From positions 1-29,480 of IMG/VR virus record IMGVR_UViG_3300008107_000888: a stretch of 29,480 nucleotides of DNA, one strand, 5' to 3'. This document shows, one piece after another, positions 1 to 29,480 of the stretch; position 1 is the first letter of the stretch, and each line of letters starts with the position of its first letter. Source of the DNA: a virus. A program made the translations under genes and the position numbers. The notes beneath the pieces are model-generated. The model was not told where the DNA came from, did not search any database, and saw only the letters and a list, made by a program, of their open reading frames with translations.

Positions 1-612
1 AGTATAACAGAAGGCGCAAGCTCAACAGTTACATTAACTACTACTGGTGTTGCTGACGGCACTAGTGTTCCTTATACTATAACAGGTGCTGGCACTGGAC
101 GTGTATCAACAGCATTAACTGGTAATGTAACTGTAAATGCAAACACAGCTACATTAACGGTTAATACTACAGATGATTCTGTATATACTGGCACTCAATC
201 AGTTACAGTAACATTTGATTCAGCGCAAGCAGATCCTTGCAGCCAACTTGATAAAACAGCCGTTATAAGCATTAATGATAACGATAGTCCTCCAACAGTT
301 TGTCCAACAGTGTATGTTCCAGCAGTTTGGTGCCCAACTTATGCTTCATCAACTGGACAAGTAACTTCTCTTACACCTTCAAGCTATGTAGCAGTGGCGG
401 CAGCCTACAGTGGAGGACCGTCAACAACTGTTCCGTTAACAGTCAGTGTGTCAGCTGGCAATCCAAGCACTGTCACAGTGTTAACTACAGCAACAATTGA
501 TACAAGTTCAAACAAAGGCGGAGTTGATGTTAATGTAATAACTACCTTTAACACGATTGCACCTAATGCTGTTCCAACAGGCACTACAACCTTAGTAAGA
601 GGAGCTATCTAA
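1..612 (+). CDS. C-terminal part of a Calx-beta-type phage tail/adhesin protein (5' end outside window)
   Basis: The first reading frame is open from base 1 to the TAA at 610-612, giving at least 203 residues with no need for an internal start, so this is the end of a longer gene. The opening residues (SITEGASSTVTLTTTG) and the later stretch ending VISINDND have the look of a Calx-beta domain, an extracellular beta-sandwich common in adhesins and phage tail proteins. The second half is Thr/Ser/Val rich and contains two cysteines around a PAVW motif. It overlaps the next gene by TAATG. The gene running off the right end of the window carries the same kind of domain, so this may be the C-terminus of that tail-tip protein if the genome is circular. 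The tail role is inferred from domain type and neighbours. Confidence 0.7.
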   Translation, partial: SITEGASSTVTLTTTGVADGTSVPYTITGAGTGRVSTALTGNVTVNANTATLTVNTTDDSVYTGTQSVTVTFDSAQADPCSQLDKTAVISINDNDSPPTVCPTVYVPAVWCPTYASSTGQVTSLTPSSYVAVAAAYSGGPSTTVPLTVSVSAGNPSTVTVLTTATIDTSSNKGGVDVNVITTFNTIAPNAVPTGTTTLVRGAI

Positions 613-4546: not shown

Positions 4547-7500
4547 ATGACACAAGATTTATACTATGTTGAGAGTGGCTACCTAACACCAGATGCAGGC
4601 TATTATGTCTACACGGCTGATGCTGAAGCGGCTGTTAGCAGTGCTTCAACTATGGCAGTCACTGTGGGCGTTATTAAAGATTGTGTATCTACAATCACTT
4701 GTCAAACTACAGTAGCCGCAGTAATCAGTCACATACACGGTGCGGATCTTGTTGCATTTTCTAATGCGGCTATTGCTACAGAAATCAATGTAATAAGAAC
4801 AACTAACATTGCTCTAACTTCAGTGTTTAGTGCGGCTATTGATGCAGTCAGAGGTATCTATGTTAGTGCTCAAGCTGATTCTACTGCTACAATCTCTATT
4901 GCTAACTCACGTGTTAGAACTACAGAAGCCGCACATTCAGCGGCTTTTGCTTTGGCTGCAGACGTAAGCGTAATTTCTGGTGTTGTTATCAAAGAAGCAG
5001 AAGCCAATTTATCTAGTGCTTTTACTCAAACATCAATAACAGGCAAGCGTCAAAGATTTGAGATAGCACAAGTTGCATTATCAAGTCAAAACACTCAAGC
5101 AGAAAGAACAAGAGATGTTCTTGCTACTCTTGTCAGCCAATCTATTCTTGTATCTACTGTTGGCGTTGTTAAAGAAGTTGTCAGCAGTCAGTCTAGTGAA
5201 TTTACACAATCTAGCAGTGCAAATAGAACACGTGACGCTAGTGTTAGCATTAACGGTGCTTTTACTCCAACACTTATCGCTGATGCATTTAAGAATAGTC
5301 TTGCTGTATTAGATGCAACGTCATCATTGACTGTTCAATCAAATGTTACTGTTGGTTATCAAGCTGACTTATCAAGCCAATCAACTGTTATTGTTCAAGG
5401 TAGCATTTATAAACTTGTTGCGGCTAGTTTTGCAAGTGAATTTAATTCTATTGTAGTTGGAGTAAAACCAAGTCGCGTTGTTGGTGATCCAACTATAACA
5501 TCTGGTGCTGGATATTCTGATTTAACTATTGATACAACAACTAAGAAGTTTGGTGCAGGTAGTTTAAGATTCCACAGCCGTCCGTCTTATACTAGTAATA
5601 ACAATATCTATGTTGCTGGGAATACTGCCGTTAGCACAAGTCAAAAGCAATTTGGTGCAGGCAGTATATTCTTTGATGGCACTGGTGATAATATTAGTTT
5701 AGATTTTTCTACTGATTATGCATTTGGGTCAGGTGACTTTACTGTTGAGTGTTGGATCAGACCGCAGACATTAGTAGGAACTGATTATATTTTTGATTTA
5801 AGAAATGCTCCTTCTCTAGTGCCAGTGCTATATTTAGATAACGGAGTTTTAAAGTATAGTAATCCTATCACAGTAAGAATTACTGGTTCTACATTAACCA
5901 CAAATACTTGGTATCACATAGCATTAGCAAGAAGTGGAACCAGCACTAAATTATTTGTTAATGGAACACAAGTAGGATCGACATATACTGATACAACTGT
6001 TTATAGTGCTGCAACTCCATTCTTTGGTAGCAACTATCAAAATTCTGTTGGTAGCAATTTTCATGGCTATATGGATGAGATTCGTGTAAGCAACATAGCA
6101 AGATATACCAGCAACTTTACTGCACCTACGGCAGCTTTTACTCCTGATAGTGATTCATTAATCTTAATTAACGGTAATACTACCATTGCAGATAGTCATG
6201 CAGATTGGCAAACAGTTTTAAGTGTCCCGTCAGTTTCTTATCCAGACAACAGTAAATGGACAACTTGGAAGACTATTGATTTTTGGTTATACATCACTCC
6301 TGGGCATCCAACAAATAATAGTTCTTACCATCATTTGTTAGGGCAAGGTTTAGTTTTTAGTAGTAATTATTGGAGTTTTTTATTACAAGGAGCTAGCGGA
6401 TTTTCAAGACTACTTGCTTTATCTACAGGTGCAGGTGGAGCAAGCGGTAGCGCAAGTGGAGTAAGCATTCTTGACAATCAATGGAATCACATTAGACTTA
6501 TTAAAGACAGCGGATCTATTGTTTTCTTCTTAAACGGAACAAAATTATATACATGGACATCAATAAATCTTCTTGATCTTGCACAACCATTATTATTTGG
6601 TGGTGACGGTGGTTATGTTGGACTTGCAGGCACTGGAAACGTTTATGTTGACGAAGTATTCATCAGTGATGTTGCTTTAACCAGCGTTAATGATACAACA
6701 TTCACAGTTCCAACAACACCATACTCAAATACCGTTGATACAAGTTTATTATTACATTTTGATTCAAACTTCTTTGATGATGCAAGTCAAATACCTAAAA
6801 CACTATCTGGTGTTGCAAGTCTAACTGCTACAGCCGTTCAATCAACAGTTGCATTTAAATCAGTTGACGCGGTAGCTGGACTATCATCTACAGCTTCTAT
6901 GACTATTGTAGCTGTAAAGAATGCAGAGATTATTCTAACTGCATTTAGTGATGCGGCAGTAACAACTAATGTTAATAGACTACGCTCTGCTGATTCTTCA
7001 CAGTCAAGTGCTTTCACTCAGTCAATTGATAGTATAAGAGTTCGTTTTGCTGACTCTGCACAGTCAAGTGTCTTTACGCAAGACACTACCGCTGTCAAAA
7101 CTGTTGATTCAACTGTCACTACAGATGCTATCTTTACTGAACTTGCGGCAGTGGCAAGAACTGGCGCGGGCTTTGTGCAACTTGATGTCCAAGCCACAAT
7201 GGCTATTACAGCCGTTAAGACTACAGACGTAGTAGCACCTATTAGTAGTGAGTTTGCACAGGCAACCACAGCAGTCAAATCCACAGTTAGTAGTGCGGCA
7301 TTATCCAGTGCTACCGCTCTTGGCACAACTATTACCAGAATTCGTAATCAAGTTTTAGTCTATGCAGTTAACAGCCAGTTAGAAGCACAAGTAGGTGAGA
7401 TAGAACAATTTAGCATAGACTTAACAGCAGTTAGTATCCTATCTTGCGAAACAGGCGGAGTTAGAGAAGCTTTTGCTGATTTAAGTAGTCAATCCAGTAT

Positions 7501-8365
7501 AGACGCTACAATTTTACGCATTAAATCTTTATCTAGTAACTTATCTAGTGAGTTTGCACAAACAACAGTTTCTAACAATAGTCTAATAAGAAATGTTGCA
7601 GCCAGTATTGCTGTAGAAGCAACTACCAGCACCGCTCCTGGAACTATCAAAACGTCAGCAATCACCACAGATGCAATCTTTACTGAATTGGCAGTAGTGG
7701 CAAAGATTGGACAAGGATTTATTACCTTAGACAGTCAAGCTACATTGTCAGCAGTGATTACCAAAACAAATGGAGCTTCAGCTAATATTGCTAGCCAAGC
7801 TACTATGGTTGCTGTAATTGGTAAACTGCAAACTGCTGACTCTGCAATTTCTTCCACCGCTACACTTACAACCACAGGAACATTTGTAACCACTGCCTCT
7901 GCTAACTTTAGTGCAGCCTATACTTTAGTATGTAATGTAGTTAAAACAGTAAATGCTATCAGTCTTGAGGCTAGTGCTGGCACATTAGTTGCTCAAGGCG
8001 TGGCTACTAAACGAACAACCGCATCAATATCAGCGTTGGCATTTGAGCTTGCTGTTGGCAGCAGAACACAAACTTTCACTGCCAACCTTACTGCCGCCGC
8101 AAGTGTCCAAGCAAAGATTGGCGGCTTATTCCAATTCACAGCCGCAATGCAGGGCTTTGCCGCTGAAGTCATTGTAGCAGACATTATACACATTGATGCT
8201 AAACTGACTTGGATGATATTTGCTGAAGATAGAGCATACTCAATCCAATCAGAGAACAGAACTTACTTAATCATTGAGGAAGATAGGGACTACATGATAG
8301 TCCAAGAAGATAGAGAACACGCAGTCACAAGAGAACTGCTAACTACAGAATTACAAGGAGTCTAA
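4547..8365 (+). CDS. Giant repetitive tail fibre with two LamG-like domains
   Basis: This is the largest gene here (1272 residues). Residues about 95-305 and 750-1215 are arrays of units of 19-23 residues with a loose core LSS-x-F-x-Q or xSS-x-x-T followed by a basic or KT position. Between them lie two concanavalin-like (LamG) domains. The first, about 365-530, has FTVECWIRP, YHIALARSGTSTKLFVNGT and DEIRVSNIARYT. The second, about 565-725, has TIDFWLYITPG, WNHIRLIKD, VFFLNGTK and YVDEVFISD. LamG folds often bind sugars, which fits receptor recognition. The C-terminus has four short units with the core E-[DN]-R, described separately. An AAGGA ribosome site precedes ATG 4547. The fibre role is secure in outline; the receptor is unknown. 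Confidence 0.85.
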   Translation: MTQDLYYVESGYLTPDAGYYVYTADAEAAVSSASTMAVTVGVIKDCVSTITCQTTVAAVISHIHGADLVAFSNAAIATEINVIRTTNIALTSVFSAAIDAVRGIYVSAQADSTATISIANSRVRTTEAAHSAAFALAADVSVISGVVIKEAEANLSSAFTQTSITGKRQRFEIAQVALSSQNTQAERTRDVLATLVSQSILVSTVGVVKEVVSSQSSEFTQSSSANRTRDASVSINGAFTPTLIADAFKNSLAVLDATSSLTVQSNVTVGYQADLSSQSTVIVQGSIYKLVAASFASEFNSIVVGVKPSRVVGDPTITSGAGYSDLTIDTTTKKFGAGSLRFHSRPSYTSNNNIYVAGNTAVSTSQKQFGAGSIFFDGTGDNISLDFSTDYAFGSGDFTVECWIRPQTLVGTDYIFDLRNAPSLVPVLYLDNGVLKYSNPITVRITGSTLTTNTWYHIALARSGTSTKLFVNGTQVGSTYTDTTVYSAATPFFGSNYQNSVGSNFHGYMDEIRVSNIARYTSNFTAPTAAFTPDSDSLILINGNTTIADSHADWQTVLSVPSVSYPDNSKWTTWKTIDFWLYITPGHPTNNSSYHHLLGQGLVFSSNYWSFLLQGASGFSRLLALSTGAGGASGSASGVSILDNQWNHIRLIKDSGSIVFFLNGTKLYTWTSINLLDLAQPLLFGGDGGYVGLAGTGNVYVDEVFISDVALTSVNDTTFTVPTTPYSNTVDTSLLLHFDSNFFDDASQIPKTLSGVASLTATAVQSTVAFKSVDAVAGLSSTASMTIVAVKNAEIILTAFSDAAVTTNVNRLRSADSSQSSAFTQSIDSIRVRFADSAQSSVFTQDTTAVKTVDSTVTTDAIFTELAAVARTGAGFVQLDVQATMAITAVKTTDVVAPISSEFAQATTAVKSTVSSAALSSATALGTTITRIRNQVLVYAVNSQLEAQVGEIEQFSIDLTAVSILSCETGGVREAFADLSSQSSIDATILRIKSLSSNLSSEFAQTTVSNNSLIRNVAASIAVEATTSTAPGTIKTSAITTDAIFTELAVVAKIGQGFITLDSQATLSAVITKTNGASANIASQATMVAVIGKLQTADSAISSTATLTTTGTFVTTASANFSAAYTLVCNVVKTVNAISLEASAGTLVAQGVATKRTTASISALAFELAVGSRTQTFTANLTAAASVQAKIGGLFQFTAAMQGFAAEVIVADIIHIDAKLTWMIFAEDRAYSIQSENRTYLIIEEDRDYMIVQEDREHAVTRELLTTELQGV
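4832..5465 (+). repeat. First array of 19-23-residue fibre repeats
   Basis: About nine degenerate units follow each other, such as ANLSSAFTQTSITGKRQRFE, SSQSSEFTQSSSANRTRDAS and DLSSQSTVIVQGSIYKLVA. They end where the LamG region begins. The regular spacing suggests a repetitive fibre shaft. Confidence 0.65.
6800..8190 (+). repeat. Second array of fibre repeats with a long internal duplication
   Basis: The same kind of 19-23-residue unit returns after the LamG domains. Within it, bases near 7122-7199 and 7671-7748 encode matching segments (TTDAIFTELAAVARTGAGFV and TTDAIFTELAVVAKIGQGFI) 549 bases apart, which indicates a duplication of 183 residues or a shared multi-unit module. Adjacent units SSAFTQS and SSVFTQD (about 7003-7082) also look recently duplicated. 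Confidence 0.65.
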
Positions 8366-17391: not shown

Positions 17392-17778
17392 GTGAAACTA
17401 AAGAGCACAGCAATCAAGAGTTATAGACTCCTGCAATTAGAACAACAAAATAATTGCTGTGCTCTTTGTGGCGACGTTATCATAGATGATGCTGTGTTGG
17501 ATCACTGCCATAAGACTGGCTTATTACGCAAAGTCTTACACAGAGGTTGCAACTCAATGCTGGGCAAGATTGAAAACAATATGCCTCGCAGTCGTATGAA
17601 CAGAGACAGACTAAGAACATTTGCACAGAATCTAATGCAGTATATTGAGACTACTCATACTGACATTACGCATCCAACACATAAGGAGAAGAAGATGTCT
17701 AACCCATTACCAGTCCGCGGCATGAGAACTGCCAAGAATAAGAAGCGTCCTAAGCCACCTAAGAAGCAAGGATACTGA
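17392..17778 (+). CDS. Endonuclease VII-like HNH nuclease
   Basis: Endonuclease VII of T4 resolves branched DNA before packaging. This 128-residue frame begins with GTG 17392 after GGGAG. It has CALCG (Cys23 and Cys26), LDHCHKTG (Asp37, His38, His40) and HRGCN (His50, Cys53), the pattern of that family with a His replacing one of the usual zinc cysteines. The last 27 residues (from Met102) are very basic. Position between portal and scaffold is compatible with clearing branched DNA during packaging. An internal ATG with its own ribosome site lies at 17695 and is listed separately. Confidence 0.85.
   Translation: MKLKSTAIKSYRLLQLEQQNNCCALCGDVIIDDAVLDHCHKTGLLRKVLHRGCNSMLGKIENNMPRSRMNRDRLRTFAQNLMQYIETTHTDITHPTHKEKKMSNPLPVRGMRTAKNKKRPKPPKKQGY
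17695..17778 (+). CDS. Possible nested basic micro-protein (27 aa)
   Basis: Inside the nuclease frame, AAGGAG lies just before ATG 17695, which begins MSNPLPVRGMRTAKNKKRPK. The product would have about nine Lys/Arg and four Pro. The ribosome site is better than that of the parent gene, so the tail may be made alone as well as fused. It could bind DNA or RNA. It is not confirmed by any other sign. Confidence 0.35.
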   Translation: MSNPLPVRGMRTAKNKKRPKPPKKQGY

Positions 17779-21885: not shown

Positions 21886-22171
21886 TACTAAAGAGTTTTC
21901 GGATCTTGTGCGTCTAGCTAAACAAGACATTGACAAGGTGCGAGATGATGCTTTTGATTTCTTTCATGACTTAACACCATACCGCACTGGCAATGCAAAG
22001 AATAACACATATTTGTCTGGAAGAAGTATACAGGCTAGCTATCCTTATGCAGGCAAGCTGGATGAAGGATATAGCCGTCAAGCACCAAACGGTATGTCAG
22101 GACCAACAATTGATCACATTGAGAATACTCTAATACCAAGAGCAATAAGGAGAGCGAATCGTGGCAAGTAA
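21863..22171 (+). CDS. HK97 gp10-like tail or neck protein
   Basis: This 102-residue protein has the pattern of the HK97 gp10 family: a helix with FSDLVRLAKQDIDKVRDD, then TPYRTGNAKNNTYLSGRSIQ and YPYAGKLDEG, then PTIDHIENTLIPRAIRRA. In most siphophages this gene sits between connector and tail tube, so its place after the tail chaperones is unusual. It overlaps the chaperone frame and the tape measure start, with AAGGAG upstream of ATG 21863. Likely a head-tail joining or tail completion factor. Confidence 0.7.
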   Translation: MSVSIKVDTKEFSDLVRLAKQDIDKVRDDAFDFFHDLTPYRTGNAKNNTYLSGRSIQASYPYAGKLDEGYSRQAPNGMSGPTIDHIENTLIPRAIRRANRGK

Positions 22172-24746
22172 TATAACTGTTGTCTTAACAGTAGACAATC
22201 AATCATACATAGCCAATTTAAACAAGGCTGAACAAGAAACCAAGGACTTTGCTGCCACAGGCGTTAAGGCTGGTAAAGATGTTGCTGACAGCTTTGATAA
22301 ACTGAACACAAGCACTACACATTTAAACGGACACCTAAGTAAACTCAAAGGTGCATTACTTGGTGCTGCCTTTCTAGGTTTTGCTCGTAGTGCAATCTTA
22401 ACTGCTGACGGCATTGATGATTTAAGCAAATCCACTGGCATGGCAATTGATAAAATTGTTGGCTTTAGAAATGCTCTAATGCTAGGTGGTGGAACTGCTG
22501 ATGGTGCAGCCAAAGCTATTACTACTCTTTATCAACAGATTGATGCGGCTCGTCAAGGTGCCGCAGGTGCTCAAGATGCATTTTCTCGTGTTGGTATAAC
22601 ACTAACAGCCTTAAAGGGTCAGGATGAGGATGTCTTCTACAATACATTAGAAGCCCTGGCTAAAATGCCAGAAGGTGCTGCCAAAACAGCAATGCAGATT
22701 TCTTTACTAGGTAAAGAAGGACGTAATGTCAGTATCAATAGAGAGTTCATAGACAATTTAAAAGCAGGCGAAGAAGGTGCAGTCAAAACTGCTGAAGCTA
22801 TTCGTCGTGCAGCCGCACTGAATGATGCTTGGGCTAAAAGTTTTGAGACTCTAAAGCTACAGTTTTTAGAAGCATTTACTCCGTTAATAAAAAGTGTTAG
22901 TTGGTTAATTGAGAACATTCCTGGATTGACATTAGCCTTTAAGGCATTGGGTGTGGTTATTGTAGGTATTGCCGTAGCCAGCGGCTTCCGTGCTATTGTC
23001 AGTGCTGTTGGTATGGCATCACGTGGAGTTAGTGCTCTTATTGGTGGTATGCAAAAGTTAAAAGACATGGGCGGTATTGGTAAGGCATTAGCTGGCACTA
23101 CTCAAAATAAAGGTATTGGACAAATACGTGACGCAGCCAGTGCTATTGGTTTAGGGGCAGGTGTTGTTGGTGGCGTTGGTATGATGATTGGTGGCAGTGT
23201 GGAAACTCCTGAATCTCCTCCTAAGCCACCAGGACCTAGTGAAGACAATGAAGTCATTGATGCTAATGCTGGAAAGAAAGCCAGCATCAAAGATGTTGCT
23301 GACGCTTACCTAGAAGCTAACAGAAAAGCACGTGAAGCCATTGATTTAGAAACAAGTCTAATTGGTTTAGGCAAAAAAGAACAAGATACAAGAAAAGCTC
23401 TTGCTGACATCATGAACAGAGAACGTGATGCAATAGATAAGCTAACAAAACAAAAAGAAGCGTTATCAGCCGCAGAGCAAAGAGCTGGACTTGGCGGAAA
23501 GATTGATGAACAAATTGATCGTATCAAGGCTCAAACAGCCGCTAACAAAGAAGAATTGGCTGCAAGCATTGCCGCAAAGAATGCTAGTGAAATTGGCGAT
23601 GCTATAGTAGTTGCTGGACGTGGCAGAGTCTATGACATTACTAAACAAATTGCTGATTTAAAATTTAACACAGCCACTGCAGGCATGGGTGAGTTAGACT
23701 CAAAAATAGAAAACATAACTAAATCAGCAAATGATTGGAAGAACTCAACAATACAAGCATTGGCTAATGCACAAGGTATTAGTGTTGAGGCATTTGCTAA
23801 ACTATATCCAGAAAGAGTTGCAGAAGTTTATAAAGCAGCCGCTGAAGGATTAAGAGAGCTCACAGGAGCTGCCAAGGAAAACTTTATAGCTCAACAAGGC
23901 ATTAATGATTTAACCTTTGGTATCCAACAGCGTATTAGTGCAGAAAAAGAACTTACTCAAATACAAAATGATATGGCAAACATTGGGTTGTCTAGCATTG
24001 AGAAGAAGTATAAATCTATTGATGCAGCCGCACAAGCCGCTATCAAAACACAAGTAGATGCCGCAGACAAGGCTCTGTATGGTGCTAAAGGTGTTGCTGA
24101 AGGCATGAGCATTAAGAATCTTGATCCTGAACGCTACAATAACATTGTTAAATCAGCTACTGCCAGCACAGAAAAATTAAAAGAAGGCGCTGGTGGATTA
24201 TATGATGCCAGCAGAACATTTGAGGCGGGATGGAGTGAAGCTTTTGCTAAATTTGTAGAAGATGCAAGTAATGCGGCAATGCAAAGTCAACAGTTATTTA
24301 CTAACTTAACTAAAGGCATAGAAGACGCCTTTGTAAATTTTGCCAAGACAGGCAAATTAAGTTTTAAAGATTTATTGTCAAGCATTGCTGAACAGCTATT
24401 AAGAAGTAACATTAAACAATTATTAAGTAATATCTTTTCACCAAACGGTTCATCAGGCAGCTTATTAAACACAATAATAAGTGGTGGAAGAAATCTTATG
24501 GGATTTGCTGGCGGCGGCATTATTCCAACCAACGCACCTGTAATAGTAGGTGAACGTGGTCCTGAAATCATAAGTGGTGCCGCTGGTAGAATGGTAACTC
24601 CTAATAATCAATTAGGTGGAACCAATGTCACTTACAATATCAACGCAGTAGATGCAATGAGCTTTAAACAAATGATTGCAAGAGATCCTTCATTCATTCA
24701 TGCAGTAGCCAGTCAAGGCGCTAAGAGTGTGCCAACTAGGAGATAA
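22161..24746 (+). CDS. Tail tape measure protein
   Basis: The 861-residue product sets tail length and is ejected with DNA. At about 1.5 angstrom per residue it would give a tail near 130 nm. GTG 22161 follows AGGAG. The N-terminal part (NITVVLTVDNQSYIANLNKA and onwards) is helical. Hydrophobic segments lie near residues 55-75 and 255-290 (LTLAFKALGVVIVGIAVASG). The middle has long coiled coils. The C-terminus has the typical GGGIIPTNAPVIVGERGPEI turn near residue 784 and ends in a basic tail. No lytic domain is visible. Confidence 0.95.
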   Translation: MASNITVVLTVDNQSYIANLNKAEQETKDFAATGVKAGKDVADSFDKLNTSTTHLNGHLSKLKGALLGAAFLGFARSAILTADGIDDLSKSTGMAIDKIVGFRNALMLGGGTADGAAKAITTLYQQIDAARQGAAGAQDAFSRVGITLTALKGQDEDVFYNTLEALAKMPEGAAKTAMQISLLGKEGRNVSINREFIDNLKAGEEGAVKTAEAIRRAAALNDAWAKSFETLKLQFLEAFTPLIKSVSWLIENIPGLTLAFKALGVVIVGIAVASGFRAIVSAVGMASRGVSALIGGMQKLKDMGGIGKALAGTTQNKGIGQIRDAASAIGLGAGVVGGVGMMIGGSVETPESPPKPPGPSEDNEVIDANAGKKASIKDVADAYLEANRKAREAIDLETSLIGLGKKEQDTRKALADIMNRERDAIDKLTKQKEALSAAEQRAGLGGKIDEQIDRIKAQTAANKEELAASIAAKNASEIGDAIVVAGRGRVYDITKQIADLKFNTATAGMGELDSKIENITKSANDWKNSTIQALANAQGISVEAFAKLYPERVAEVYKAAAEGLRELTGAAKENFIAQQGINDLTFGIQQRISAEKELTQIQNDMANIGLSSIEKKYKSIDAAAQAAIKTQVDAADKALYGAKGVAEGMSIKNLDPERYNNIVKSATASTEKLKEGAGGLYDASRTFEAGWSEAFAKFVEDASNAAMQSQQLFTNLTKGIEDAFVNFAKTGKLSFKDLLSSIAEQLLRSNIKQLLSNIFSPNGSSGSLLNTIISGGRNLMGFAGGGIIPTNAPVIVGERGPEIISGAAGRMVTPNNQLGGTNVTYNINAVDAMSFKQMIARDPSFIHAVASQGAKSVPTRR

Positions 24747-24748
24747 AA

Positions 24749-25129
24749 ATGTCATTTCAATGGATTGTAAACAATGCTGAATCAATCAGCATAAACAGAA
24801 AAAAGACTGTAGCACAGACTACTGCCAGAGATGGTAAAGTTCGTGCTGTTAGCCGTGGAACTCCTCCTAAGAGATTTGAGGTGCGTGTTCCAGACGGTAT
24901 TGCTTGGACAACATTAAAGTCTGACATAGAGGCAGCAGAAGTATTAGATCGTGTGTCTACTGCTACAATATCAATACCTTATGCCAAGTTTCCTTGGTTC
25001 TATAATAATATTAATCCAGGCACTGACTTATCATACACAGTGATTTGCACACAGTTTCCTGAATGGACTTTGTTTGCACAAAATCAAGTCAGTTGGAGCG
25101 GTGCATTTGTATTTGTTGAGGTAGCCTAA
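24749..25129 (+). CDS. Distal tail protein
   Basis: This 126-residue beta-rich protein is directly after the tape measure. The pattern (FQWIVNNAESISINRKKTVA, TPPKRFEVRVPDGIAW, ending TLFAQNQVSWSGAFVFVEVA) fits a small distal tail or minor tail protein that closes the tube above the hub, comparable to lambda gpM or short Dit proteins. AGGAG precedes ATG 24749, and the end overlaps the next gene by TAATG. Confidence 0.65.
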   Translation: MSFQWIVNNAESISINRKKTVAQTTARDGKVRAVSRGTPPKRFEVRVPDGIAWTTLKSDIEAAEVLDRVSTATISIPYAKFPWFYNNINPGTDLSYTVICTQFPEWTLFAQNQVSWSGAFVFVEVA

Positions 25130-25734
25130 TGCCAGCATTAATAGATTACTCAAGTATACAGACTAACTTGTTTGTTAGACTGCAGATAGATGAATACAGA
25201 ACTAGCTCTGCTGGTGCTTATACTAGTCAAGTGTTAAGATTCAGTGATAGTAGAATCAATTACACTATCAACAGTGAAGTTTACACTGGACTAGGTAATT
25301 TACTTGGTGTGACTAATAGCAGTAGTGAGATTCGTCCAAGTTCAGGTGAATTAACTATAACTATTAGCGGAATTCCTAATACCAGTATTGATGAAATAGT
25401 TAATAGTAGAATTAAAGGAAGCCCTGTGACAGTTTATCGTGCATTCTTTGACGTTACCACAGGCACATTTATTAACTTTGGCAGCGAAGCATATGGTAGA
25501 TTCTTTGGATTTGTCAACAGTTATAGTCTACAAGAAGAATATGACATTGATGCCAGAACAGCTACAAATACTATTATATTGATATGCAATAGCTCAATTG
25601 ATGTTCTTAATAATAAAACTTCTGGGCGCAGGACTAATCCTAACAGCGAAAAATCATTTTATCCTAATGATTTAAGCATGGACCGTGTGCCAACACTTAA
25701 GAATGCCACATTTGATTTTGGAGCACCTAAATGA
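25129..25734 (+). CDS. Baseplate hub-like tail protein (gpL / DUF2163-like)
   Basis: This 201-residue protein (PALIDYSSIQTNLFVRLQID, then NYTINSEVYTGLGNLLGV, ELTITISGIPNTSIDEIVNS) resembles tail hub proteins that follow the distal tail gene, with a hub-like beta domain in the first 150 residues. The C-terminal stretch (SGRRTNPNSEKSFYPNDLSM and a later PTLKNATFDFG) is the usual end of this family. The cysteines found in iron-sulphur hub proteins such as lambda gpL are not seen as a cluster here. It overlaps both neighbours. Confidence 0.65.
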   Translation: MPALIDYSSIQTNLFVRLQIDEYRTSSAGAYTSQVLRFSDSRINYTINSEVYTGLGNLLGVTNSSSEIRPSSGELTITISGIPNTSIDEIVNSRIKGSPVTVYRAFFDVTTGTFINFGSEAYGRFFGFVNSYSLQEEYDIDARTATNTIILICNSSIDVLNNKTSGRRTNPNSEKSFYPNDLSMDRVPTLKNATFDFGAPK

Positions 25735-26486
25735 GTTTTATAGATAGTATTGTTGATTTTGGATCAAGTGCCTTAAAATACTTAAATGCCAATCCAATTG
25801 CAGGGGCGTTAGCCAGAACTGCTATTACGGGTCTTGCATTAAATCAAATTCAAAAAAGCATTAACAAAGATAACAACAAAGATAACAAGGGAACTAGAGT
25901 TAGTCTAGACCCAGATACACAAAATGCTATTCCAGTTGTTTACGGAACTGCCTATGTTACGCCAATAATTACTGATGCAGCCATTAGTGGTGATAATTTA
26001 TTCATGTATTATTGTCTAACACTTTGCGAAAAGACAGGCAATCTATACAGCACAGGTAGCAATAGTGTTATCAGTATTGATGCTGTTTATTATAATGAAC
26101 TACAAGTTAACTTCCAAGCTGATGGTTATACTGTTGGCAGTTTTAGCGACAGTGAAGGAACAGTATCTACTGATCCTAACGGATTAATCAAAATATATCC
26201 GTTTAGTGGAGGTAGTAATTTTCCTGTAAATTTTACTGGACAAGCAAACGGCAACACTAGCCTAGCTAACACAATTATGCTAGACTGGACAGCAAATCAT
26301 ACTATGAATAACTTGGTATTTGTCATTGTTCGTATTGAGTATAACAAAGATAAAGGTATTACAGGATTAGGAAACTTGCTTTTTAAAGTAAACAATACAA
26401 TAACCCTGCCTGGTGATTGTCTGTATGACTACATGACTAACACACGATATGGTGCTGGAATTTCACCTGCGGAGATTAATCTATAA
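25731..26486 (+). CDS. N-terminal part of tail tip (J-like) protein
   Basis: This is a 251-residue protein. After a hydrophobic start (SSALKYLNANPIAGALARTA) the region DPDTQNAIPVVYGTAYVTPI and onwards, and the end GLGNLLFKVNNTITLPGDCL followed by YDYMTNTRYGAGISPAEINL, match the N-terminal hub of lambda J-like tail tip proteins of marine phages. In complete proteins the chain goes on with a Leu-rich segment, then Y-[ST]-D, then an [LI]NGV-[IL]-DT strand. Here the frame stops, and those continuations are found at the starts of the next two genes. The stop overlaps the next start by TAATG. I read this as the first piece of a split tail tip. Confidence 0.8.
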   Translation: MSFIDSIVDFGSSALKYLNANPIAGALARTAITGLALNQIQKSINKDNNKDNKGTRVSLDPDTQNAIPVVYGTAYVTPIITDAAISGDNLFMYYCLTLCEKTGNLYSTGSNSVISIDAVYYNELQVNFQADGYTVGSFSDSEGTVSTDPNGLIKIYPFSGGSNFPVNFTGQANGNTSLANTIMLDWTANHTMNNLVFVIVRIEYNKDKGITGLGNLLFKVNNTITLPGDCLYDYMTNTRYGAGISPAEINL

Positions 26487-28303
26487 TGAAAAGTTTATCC
26501 CAACTTAATGCCAGAGGCACAAGTTCATTAAATTATACTGATGATCGTAATGCTTCAATTACATTTGATAGAGATACACCAAGTAATCAATCACTAAGTA
26601 TTGCATCTGGACAACCACATACAGCTCAACCTGGTATTTTAATACTTGATATAATTAAACCAGATAGTCTAAACATATATTATGAGATAGATGTAAGTAA
26701 TCTTGCAGGTGCCACAGTTAGTTGGCCCAATTTGCCTGCTGGCGTCACTCTTACTAATTTAAGTTCTGGAAAATATAGAATAACCAACATTGACACAGTT
26801 GCACAGTGGGATGCAATTAAAGCTCCAATAATATCTAATCCTGGAATTACCTATGCTCCTTATATCTATATTGCTGGCATATACTATGATCCAAGTAAAA
26901 GTAAAGTTTGGTATACTAATGTTACTATAACAGTTAGGGCAGTATTAACATCTGTGTCAACACAACTATCACGTATAACAGGCATTCAGCAAGCTCGCAG
27001 TAATTTAAATGCTGTATCAAGTATTAGTAACTTTCTTGCTGGATTTAGAAAACAAGCAAGCCTAGCAATTTCAACGGTTAGTTCTTTAACCATAGTTCCT
27101 AAGGCTACTAAGCGAGGCATATCTTTAGAAGCAGGTGTATCTACTTTGACTGTTGTTAATGCAAAATTTTCTGGAGCAACAAGTAATATGACTGCAATTA
27201 CTACAACAATTTCTATAGGCACTTTTGTAGTTCGCCCAACAATTGGAATATCAGCATTGATGCAACATTCTTCAATAATTGGTCCAGGCTGGGGTTCTCC
27301 AACAACCTATCAAGATGAACAATATCCTAGTGACTATTATCAACATTCAGCTAAAAAGTTTTTTAGTGTTAACAATTATGCTTTTGTTAGTGACCCTAAC
27401 GGAACTAACACTACTACCAGCGGGCAGACAAGAAATAGTGGTAATGTAAAAGTTTATGTTGCCGCAGATGATACTGCACCTTATTTTTTACAAACTACAT
27501 TGAGACCTGATCAAAGTTACATTGATGCAACAGCATCTTTTGAGGCATCTTTTTATGATTTTGGAAAAGATGTTGCAATAAATTCAAATGCTACTAGAAT
27601 TGCTGTGCTTGCTTCTGAAGAATATAACGGCAACCCTGAAATTTATATATTTGATAGATCAGGAACTACCTGGACCAGAACACAGAGACTGTCAGTTACG
27701 TATGCAGCCTTTAATATTGCTATGAGTAGTGATGGAAATTATATTTGTTATTCACAAAATTTAACTAATACCTTAAGGATTTACAAGTATAATGCAGGAA
27801 CTTATAGCTTACAACAAACAATGGATCTAACATCTATAAATTCTGGAAATACGTTATATTCAAACACAGCACAAATGAACTCAGACGGAAGTAAAATTCT
27901 TATATACTCAATAAGTGGTAGTGGATCTAACGGAAATATCTTTACACTTCAAAGAACTGGAACTACTTGGACTAACTCAGGAACATTTAATCTTAACGGT
28001 ATAGAAAAGTTGCAAAATGAAACACTTCTTGACAACGCTGTATTAAGTTTATCGCCTAATTGGAATTATGGCGTGATTCAAACAAGAATAGACAACAACG
28101 ACGTTGCGCCGTTTGAGATCGCTGATGCAGATATTGGTGCATTATATATTGTAAACTTAAATGCGGCAGCTACTGGATACACTAGTGTTCAACGAATTAA
28201 TTTTAGCAATGGACTTACTATGCCGTCTGGACTTAAAATAAGTGATACAGGAACAATTGATCTGTTTTATGGATCAGCAATTGTCACATATACAAAACTT
28301 TAA
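26486..28303 (+). CDS. Inserted tail protein: Ig-like, short repeats and beta-propeller
   Basis: This is a 605-residue protein between two pieces of the tail tip. Residues 3-17 (SLSQLNARGTSSLNY) resemble the next segment of a J-like protein. Residues about 50-150 look like an Ig-like domain (YYEIDVSNLAGATVSWPNLP, GKYRITNIDTVAQWDAI). Residues 152-268 are five units of about 21 residues like those of the giant fibre. Residues 270-605 resemble a beta-propeller, with repeated blades such as VAINSNATRIAVLA, IAMSSDGNYICYSQ and QMNSDGSKILIYSI, each followed by a strand and a WTRTQ or WTNSG turn. A GGAG ribosome site precedes ATG 26486. It is probably a receptor-binding module; the carbohydrate or protein target is unknown. 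Confidence 0.7.
   Translation: MKSLSQLNARGTSSLNYTDDRNASITFDRDTPSNQSLSIASGQPHTAQPGILILDIIKPDSLNIYYEIDVSNLAGATVSWPNLPAGVTLTNLSSGKYRITNIDTVAQWDAIKAPIISNPGITYAPYIYIAGIYYDPSKSKVWYTNVTITVRAVLTSVSTQLSRITGIQQARSNLNAVSSISNFLAGFRKQASLAISTVSSLTIVPKATKRGISLEAGVSTLTVVNAKFSGATSNMTAITTTISIGTFVVRPTIGISALMQHSSIIGPGWGSPTTYQDEQYPSDYYQHSAKKFFSVNNYAFVSDPNGTNTTTSGQTRNSGNVKVYVAADDTAPYFLQTTLRPDQSYIDATASFEASFYDFGKDVAINSNATRIAVLASEEYNGNPEIYIFDRSGTTWTRTQRLSVTYAAFNIAMSSDGNYICYSQNLTNTLRIYKYNAGTYSLQQTMDLTSINSGNTLYSNTAQMNSDGSKILIYSISGSGSNGNIFTLQRTGTTWTNSGTFNLNGIEKLQNETLLDNAVLSLSPNWNYGVIQTRIDNNDVAPFEIADADIGALYIVNLNAAATGYTSVQRINFSNGLTMPSGLKISDTGTIDLFYGSAIVTYTKL
26940..27290 (+). repeat. About 21-residue repeats in the inserted tail protein
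   Basis: Five units encode RAVLTSVSTQLSRITGIQQA, RSNLNAVSSISNFLAGFRKQ and similar segments. The period and the [ST]-[ST]-x-[ILV] core match the arrays at 4832-5465 and 6800-8190. Confidence 0.55.
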
Positions 28304-28312
28304 GGATTAACA

Positions 28313-29480
28313 ATGTCAACACTAACAAATGCGTTTACAATAAATGGTGTCATTGATACTAAGAATAAAGTATTAGACAACATGAATTTAATCTGCGATG
28401 CCGCAGGAGCATTCTTAACTTATGATGTGAACACGGGCTTATGGAGTGTTATTGTCAATGAACCTGACACTTCAGTTAAGAGCTTTAATGATAACAATAT
28501 TATAGGTGCTATTAATGTTCACGGAACTGGACTAACAGAAGCATACAATAGTGTCAGCGTTGAGTTTCCTCACAAGGATATAAGAGATAGAACAGACTTC
28601 ATTGATTTAACAATACCTGTTGGAAATAGATTTGCTAACGAAATTGATAATGTATTAAACATCAAATATGATCTAGTTAATCATCCTGTTCAAGCTCAGT
28701 ATCTTGCTACAGTAGAACTTAAACAAAGTCGTGTAGATCGTGTCATTGAGTTTAACACTGACTATACAGCACTTGGTGTTAAAGCAGGTGATATTATATC
28801 TGTTAGTAATACTCCTTATGGATTTTCTAGTAAACTATTCCGTGTTACACGCATAGAAGAAAATGATACTGATGCTGGAGGTATTGAGTTAGGCATAACA
28901 GCATTAGAGTATGATGCAGATGTATACAGCTCAGCTGGGCTTACCTATCAAGAACGAACGCTACTAACTGGCATTCCAGCAAAGATCAATAATGATGCTA
29001 CTAAGCAAAAAGACGATCAAAGCACAGGCGAAACACTGCTTAAACTGCTTGGTATGAATGTTCTAACAGGATTATTTAATAGTGTTTTTACTAAGAATGC
29101 AACAACTGGAAAAGTTACTCAAACTATAACACCAACTAGTGCTTCAAGAGACAAGGCAATGAGTAAGATGAAATTGCCAGGTGTAGTTATCACAGGCGCA
29201 AGCTCAATTTGTGAAGGTGCTACCCTAACTTTAACATTAGATTTAGATTGTAATAGTTGTATGTATGATCCTATTAGTTATGAATATACAATAACGGGCA
29301 TAACATCAGCAGACACATCATTTCCCTTAACAGGCACAGTTAACGTTCCTGGCACAATGTCAATCCCAATAACTGCAGATGCAGACACAGGCCCAGAAAC
29401 AATGGTATTGACTATTGGCGCCGCTACTAAATCAGTTGTTATCAATGACTCGCTGGCATTTACCTATGTAACAGATGCAA
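28313..29480 (+). CDS. Central and C-terminal part of tail tip (J-like) protein, truncated by the window
   Basis: The frame is open for at least 389 codons and runs off the window. It starts MSTLTNAFTINGVIDTKNKV, the strand that normally follows the Y-[ST]-D segment inside J-like proteins. It continues FNDNNIIGAINVHGTGLTEA, VSVEFPHKDIRDRTDFIDLT and QSRVDRVIEFNTDYTALGVK, and ends the hub with ITALEYDADVY. Residues from about 293 begin Calx-beta-like domains (VVITGASSICEGATLTLTLD). AAGGA precedes its ATG, so it is translated separately from the inserted gene, in the same frame and nine bases after that gene's stop. It is the second half of the split tail tip. Confidence 0.8.
   Translation, partial: MSTLTNAFTINGVIDTKNKVLDNMNLICDAAGAFLTYDVNTGLWSVIVNEPDTSVKSFNDNNIIGAINVHGTGLTEAYNSVSVEFPHKDIRDRTDFIDLTIPVGNRFANEIDNVLNIKYDLVNHPVQAQYLATVELKQSRVDRVIEFNTDYTALGVKAGDIISVSNTPYGFSSKLFRVTRIEENDTDAGGIELGITALEYDADVYSSAGLTYQERTLLTGIPAKINNDATKQKDDQSTGETLLKLLGMNVLTGLFNSVFTKNATTGKVTQTITPTSASRDKAMSKMKLPGVVITGASSICEGATLTLTLDLDCNSCMYDPISYEYTITGITSADTSFPLTGTVNVPGTMSIPITADADTGPETMVLTIGAATKSVVINDSLAFTYVTDA

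Follow-up and report, generated by a model that had tools for sequence, protein, structure and literature searches.

In siphophage tail-tip hubs, the J part is one conserved chain on the DNA route. A hub of the T5 pb3 type is divided over consecutive genes in lambda (gpL-gpI-gpJ) and in RcGTA (gp13-gp14-gp15) (PMC10721106). In lambda, a plug gene is located between the hub pieces, and gpL, gpI and gpJ together correspond to pb3 (PMC10721106). Modular receptor-binding proteins with an N-terminal anchor are also known, such as those of Klebsiella phages (PMC8262889). In the open-licence literature, no account was found of a J protein that is cut within the hub and has a fibre between its halves. 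Both the division inside J and the hub-derived anchor of the locus described here look new.

The window, that is, the whole stretch of DNA that was analysed, comprises the complete record of a virus, 29,480 bases long. We consider it likely, with some room for doubt, that its J hub consists of two separately translated halves, encoded by ORF1 and ORF3, around a receptor-binding fibre gene, ORF2, the product of which starts with ~22 residues that are a helix and a strand of the hub itself. The homology, the gene order, the independent ribosome sites, the conservation and the cassette exchange of the fibre part are established at the level of sequence. Assembly of the halves, filling of the gap by the ORF2 N-terminus and host binding by the distal domains are inferred, without protein or structural data. 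The features of the locus are as follows.

22161-24746: tape measure gene, 5' of the L-like gene
24749-25129: short gene between the tape measure gene and the L-like gene
25129-25734, plus strand: ORF0, L-like gene (201 aa), predicted separate polypeptide with the first hub domain, HDI (name from order)
25731-26486, plus strand: ORF1 (251 aa), N-terminal half of J, HDII-insertion/HDII part (names from order)
26471-26474, plus strand: GGAG, Shine-Dalgarno site of ORF2, within the -E-I- codons of the ORF1 tail, 11 nt 5' of the ATG
26486-28303, plus strand: ORF2, whole, from the ORF list
26486-26551, plus strand: predicted hub-derived anchor, ORF2 codons 1-22, the helix and strand absent between ORF1 and ORF3
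26552-28303, plus strand: exchangeable fibre cassette, Ig-like to ORF2 residue ~150, stalk ~151-296, propeller-like ~297-605
28302-28306, plus strand: AAGGA, Shine-Dalgarno site of ORF3, 6 nt 5' of the ATG and overlapping the ORF2 stop
28313-29480, plus strand, running off the record: ORF3, first 389 codons, C-terminal J hub half (HDIII/HDIV, names from order) and linker
1-612, plus strand: ORF3, C-terminal ~203 codons, located at the opposite end of the opened record

The hub genes occupy the position expected for a siphophage tail-tip hub, with the tape measure gene followed by the L-like gene and then by ORF1. The first-pass annotation had placed the end of ORF3 at position 29480, which proved incorrect, as the C-terminus is encoded at positions 1-612. 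The N-terminal part of ORF3 aligned with residues 1-390 of ORF3 of a related locus (L003), and the product of positions 1-612 aligned with residues 394-598 of the same protein (67% identity, E 4e-73), giving a total length of ~595 residues. The two ORF3 frames do not join directly, a few bases being absent at the join. Since the record ends encode both ends of ORF3, the record is read as an opened circle; the genome is probably circular or permuted, about 29.5 kb long and almost completely covered. Elsewhere in the record, directly 3' of the portal gene (positions 17392-17778), a small protein with CxxC and DHCHKTG motifs is encoded, which resembles a recombination endonuclease VII-type HNH nuclease by motif reading only.

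Profile comparisons indicated that the consecutive genes ORF0, ORF1 and ORF3 make up one T5 pb3-type hub. The profile of ORF0 (13 relatives) matched residues 12-179 of pb3 (E 1e-5), and ORF0 also matched the tail protein family phrog_2048 (1e-22). ORF1 was examined in an alignment of 41 members, and its profile A1 matched pb3 residues 261-478 with an E-value of 0.0016, which would be weak as a sole match, and the ORF3 profile A2 matched residues 522-720 of pb3 (E 5e-15) and residues 523-723 of the DT57C hub homologue (E 1e-17), with a further match of ORF3 to phrog_31, central tail fiber J (2e-20). The three profiles were thus colinear on the single chain of pb3 (about 12-179, 261-478 and 522-720). 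The hub fold was assessed on a natural fused relative, L126, and not on the split pieces. Its model (mean pLDDT 87) had as best matches T5 pb3 (Foldseek E 2e-22), lambda J (Z 23.4, rmsd 2.7, 344 residues aligned) and the GTA hub (Z 23.9). The domain names HDI to HDIV were inferred from the order of the genes and of pb3, not from coordinates.

The link that is missing between the two halves is, by sequence comparison, the first ~17-22 residues of ORF2. ORF1 ends with ..RYGAGISPAEINL, ORF2 begins with MKSLSQLNARGTSSLNYTDDR (also given as MKSLSQLNARGTSSLNYTD), and ORF3 begins with MSTLTNAFTINGVIDT. In fused relatives, the ORF1-like and ORF3-like parts are joined by a helix and a strand, e.g. SITALNTYSAQSVTY, and the junction reads ..YGASINPNLINTSSITALNTYSAQSVTYGNFPAQQRYQINGLIDT; therefore, ORF1, residues 1-~17 of ORF2, and ORF3 cover J once. 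A score matrix of 17 columns, derived from 80 ORF2 starts chosen by the motif [LF]xxLN, was run on 14 fused J proteins of about 590-1220 aa. The expected place scored 14-27 bits and was the best window in 13 of the 14 proteins and the second-best in the remaining one, while the best windows in the remainder of the ORF2 proteins, used as a control, had a mean of -1.7 and a maximum of 10.2. On these scores, the likeness of the ORF2 start to the missing J segment is not due to chance. In an alignment of 29 ORF2 proteins that were not selected by the motif, Leu7 and Asn8 were invariant. The segment forms a helix (255-265) and a strand (269-273) in the L126 model, and in the ORF2 model it forms a helix (4-10), after which comes an Ig-like domain, all-beta and modelled with confidence, that extends to about residue 150.

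Each of the pieces appears to be translated separately. A GGAG was found within 20 nt 5' of the ORF2 start in 86 of 97 split loci, sitting in Glu-Ile codons near the end of ORF1, and was absent from the equivalent place in 14 of 14 fused loci. The Glu codon at this site was GAG in 63 cases and GAA in 7, compared with 54 GAG and 553 GAA in the rest of ORF1, and the base 5' of the Glu codon was G in 60/70 cases at the site versus 19/607 elsewhere in ORF1. This codon bias points to selection at the nucleotide level. Related sequences give counts that are not independent, but the GGAG contrast is large and holds across proteins that are about 40-50% identical. A Shine-Dalgarno-like site for ORF3 (AAGGA, AGGA, AGG or AGGAG) was present in 68 of 72 three-piece loci; the AAGGA of the record itself was read from the sequence and had been scored 'none' in the automated count only because the match there started past the ATG.

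Related loci were collected by scans with ORF1 or ORF1 profiles, followed by removal of duplicates. All of the resulting 115 viral loci were found through ORF1, and the proportions hold for relatives of ORF1, not for phages at large. They comprised 72 three-piece loci, a few of which had two genes within the insert, 17 three-piece loci that were cut off, 15 fused loci, 8 two-piece loci without an insert, and 3 that were too short to assign. The J part of the hub is accordingly not in one chain in the record and in the 72, 17 and 8 loci in which ORF1 and ORF3 are separate. The two-piece loci (L028, L033, L038, L070, L125, L127, L128 and L129) had the same break point as the three-piece loci, and all except L070 grouped with the fused loci L126 and L136. 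Because these eight loci are split at the same point without an insert, splitting and insertion are separable. The locus states were clustered on the tree and required at least 5 changes; the deep forks were unresolved, and on a smaller set the hypothesis that the two-piece state arose only once could not be rejected (p 0.079). Rather than being a recent accident, the arrangement has a long history in these phages, among which it is common. Near-copies carried breaks in ORF2 or ORF3 at L008 9680-9701, L010 8351-8473 and L098 2478-2502, ORF3 being cut at 296 aa in L008 and intact in L010, where ORF2 was cut short. These breaks look like sequencing or assembly frameshifts.

The phages with this arrangement form a large, uncultured aquatic group. 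In the cultured-phage collection, three different ORF1 queries matched only the Methylophilaceae phage P19250A and a few Pelagibacter phages. The two that were checked, P19250A and HTVC202P, have one J gene each, and no cultured phage with the split arrangement was found in that collection. The genome collection yielded one distant relative, L123, and a single-protein query with ORF3 gave no match in the viral collection. The initial reading of the locus, that a J-like gene had been split by an inserted tail-module gene, was borne out by the ordered pb3 matches and by the fused relatives, which cover the same J. The observations that would have spoken against it, namely a lack of any intact fused J among related phages or a match of ORF1 and ORF3 to different families, were not made, given the 15 fused loci, the single J gene of P19250A and the matches of both halves to pb3 in order.

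In the AF2 model of ORF2, residues 20-150 were mostly above 88 pLDDT and much of the remainder was below 50. Residues ~151-296 formed a repeat stalk of low confidence, and propeller-like strands were seen at residues 371-503. The Foldseek/VIA matches of the model were beta-propellers, with a best Z of 14.7. No Pfam family of its own was found for ORF2, and none of the cultured phages matched it. Among relatives, ORF2 was mostly 550-1360 aa in size, and its distal domains included FG-GAP propellers, Gly_rich_2, DUF285 and Laminin_G. Elsewhere in the record, a 1272-aa fibre-like protein (positions 4547-8365) contains laminin-G domains, and its short alternating repeats resemble those of the ORF2 stalk at residues ~151-296.

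Close relatives differed in the distal part of ORF2. In 21 pairs in which both hub flanks were about 80-96% identical in DNA, homology ended at ORF2 codon 8-34 (19 pairs) or codon 148 (2 pairs) and restarted within about 32 nt of the ORF2 stop. With breakpoints in or near the ORF2 start and at the ORF2 stop, it is thus the fibre that behaves as a cassette, while the anchor remains with the hub. The swapped pairs were spread over four clades, and there must therefore have been at least four separate exchange histories. Three pairs, L105/L106, L014/L084 and L015/L089, were 96%, 92% and 89% identical in ORF1, 84%, 49% and 54% in the first 150 residues of ORF2, and 93%, 95% and 96% in ORF3, respectively, the remainder of ORF2 being unrelated in each. 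The breakpoints and the domain variety are what is expected of a modular fibre with a conserved N-terminus and exchanged distal domains. That ORF2 is a receptor-binding fibre is inferred from the domain types and their variability, and receptor binding itself is likewise inferred. The J protein beyond the split had a median length of 580 aa in three-piece, 789 aa in fused and 943 aa in two-piece loci. It was shorter in three-piece phages (p 1e-8, without correction for kinship, which may explain the difference), which fits a fibre role moved from the J C-terminus to ORF2. ORF3 of L019 (8944-10968) and of L021 (8078-9970) contained an extra in-frame laminin-G domain at residues about 92-232, an insertion after residue ~50 of the hub half that marks a second domain-accepting place in the J hub.

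Several details of the first-pass annotation can be judged against these results. Its identification of the first 17 residues of ORF2 with the missing segment agrees with the score matrix, for which this was the best window in 13/14 fused J proteins, and the ribosome site that it gave to each piece corresponds to the GGAG at 26471-26474 and the AAGGA at 28302-28306. The Ig-like, repeat and propeller-like regions that it described in ORF2 correspond to residues up to ~150, ~151-296 and ~297-605. The insert that it placed at ORF2 residues 18-605 is real, although its start lies nearer residue 22 than residue 18. Its suggestion of module swapping gained support from the DNA breakpoints in close pairs, with receptor binding still an inference.

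Other explanations of the locus were weighed. ORF2 might be a structural plug or collar of the tip, similar to lambda gpI, that is placed between hub pieces by an assembly-ordered arrangement of tip genes. The location of lambda gene I between L and J, in a set of proteins that together equal pb3 (PMC10721106), speaks for this explanation, but ORF2 is large, with variable FG-GAP, Gly-rich, laminin-G and DUF285 domains that are swapped among close relatives, unlike a conserved plug, and its break point differs from that of gpI; we therefore regard a plug as improbable. It could still less readily be supposed that the three frames yield one polypeptide through programmed frameshifting and stop readthrough, an idea for which the record offers some ground, with ORF2 and ORF3 in the same frame and a single TAA between them. 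However, relative to ORF1 (its stop), the ORF2 start was in the -1 frame in 75 loci, in +1 in 19 and in frame in 3, ORF3 shared the frame of ORF2 in only 22/66 loci, the ORF2 stop was TAA in 62/66, and in 24 loci the ORF2 frame is open only within 7 nt before the ORF1 stop. Because the frames vary, programmed frameshifting or readthrough is no general explanation, and with these frames and overlaps, and a ribosome site 5' of each start, it was rejected.

That these are three ordinary, separate tail genes with a fortuitous likeness to a broken J can hardly be maintained, even though most of the relatives found have three genes here, as it is contradicted by the fused and two-piece relatives, by the colinearity of the pieces on pb3 and by the match of the anchor to fused J at one place only. 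Nor do we give any real weight to a mobile intron or intein, or to a one-off artefact of assembly or decay. Conserved genes are typical targets of introns and inteins, but no Rfam match at gathering score, and hence no catalytic RNA fold of a group I or group II intron, was found in the whole record, no repeats flank the insert, the insert encodes virion-type domains, and the layout is common to dozens of diverged loci from many samples on independent contigs. As for an invertible or repeat-mediated switch, neither inverted repeats nor direct repeats at both ends of the cassette were found in the record.

In a small group of loci (L042, L047, L130, L132, L133, and near-copies of L042), a short gene (133-154 aa) is followed by a long one, and both successive genes start with the hub segment. 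Such a duplication of the segment would be needless for a mere relic of splitting and could be possible for a docking tag. A further idea, which we think doubtful, is that the hub is an open socket with three symmetric gaps, each filled in trans by a protein with the ~20-residue segment, and that in this two-gene clade the short anchor-plus-Ig-like protein and the long fibre share the gaps as rivals, leading to mixed or asymmetric tips of variable make-up.

Under the favoured reading, two hub halves around an anchored fibre, ORF1, ORF3 and the L-like protein would form a trimeric hub, and the N-terminus of ORF2 would complete each hub subunit, so that the fibre would be held by fold complementation near the HDII-HDIII region. 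The distal domains of ORF2 may bind the host and would be swapped by recombination with the hub contacts untouched. It is a matter of speculation that a fibre at HDII-HDIII could relay a binding signal directly to the hub. The arrangement suggests a plug-in socket for changing the binding target of the phage. In most of the members found of a large environmental group, the J chain is cut at a fixed place, and the cut serves as an exchange site for probable receptor-binding parts. The fused, split, split-plus-insert and two-insert states constitute a natural experiment on the tolerance of the tail tip to splitting. The locus also offers a short, defined segment for docking that lends itself to tests in trans, and it provides a marker with which probable receptor-binding genes can be located in uncultured phages.

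Among known systems, both halves have their closest cultured relative in the J of Methylophilaceae phage P19250A (37% and 33% identity), which differs in being encoded by a single gene of 3,300 bases. The T5 pb3 and DT57C hubs match in sequence profiles and in the modelled fold of the fused homologue, but the 949 residues of pb3 form a single chain that is not interrupted by a fibre between positions 478 and 522. The Klebsiella phage receptor-binding proteins share a conserved N-terminal attachment part and an exchangeable distal part (PMC8262889); there the attachment module is a dedicated one, whereas the corresponding part of ORF2, a gene nested in that of the hub, is a short stretch of the hub fold. 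The likeness to lambda and RcGTA is that the hub, a single chain in T5, is spread over consecutive genes, with another tip gene between the pieces, and their L/J division is also present in this record. Unlike them, the record has a second division inside J, at the place corresponding to pb3 478-522, and its intervening gene encodes a large, variable fibre with a hub-segment N-terminus.
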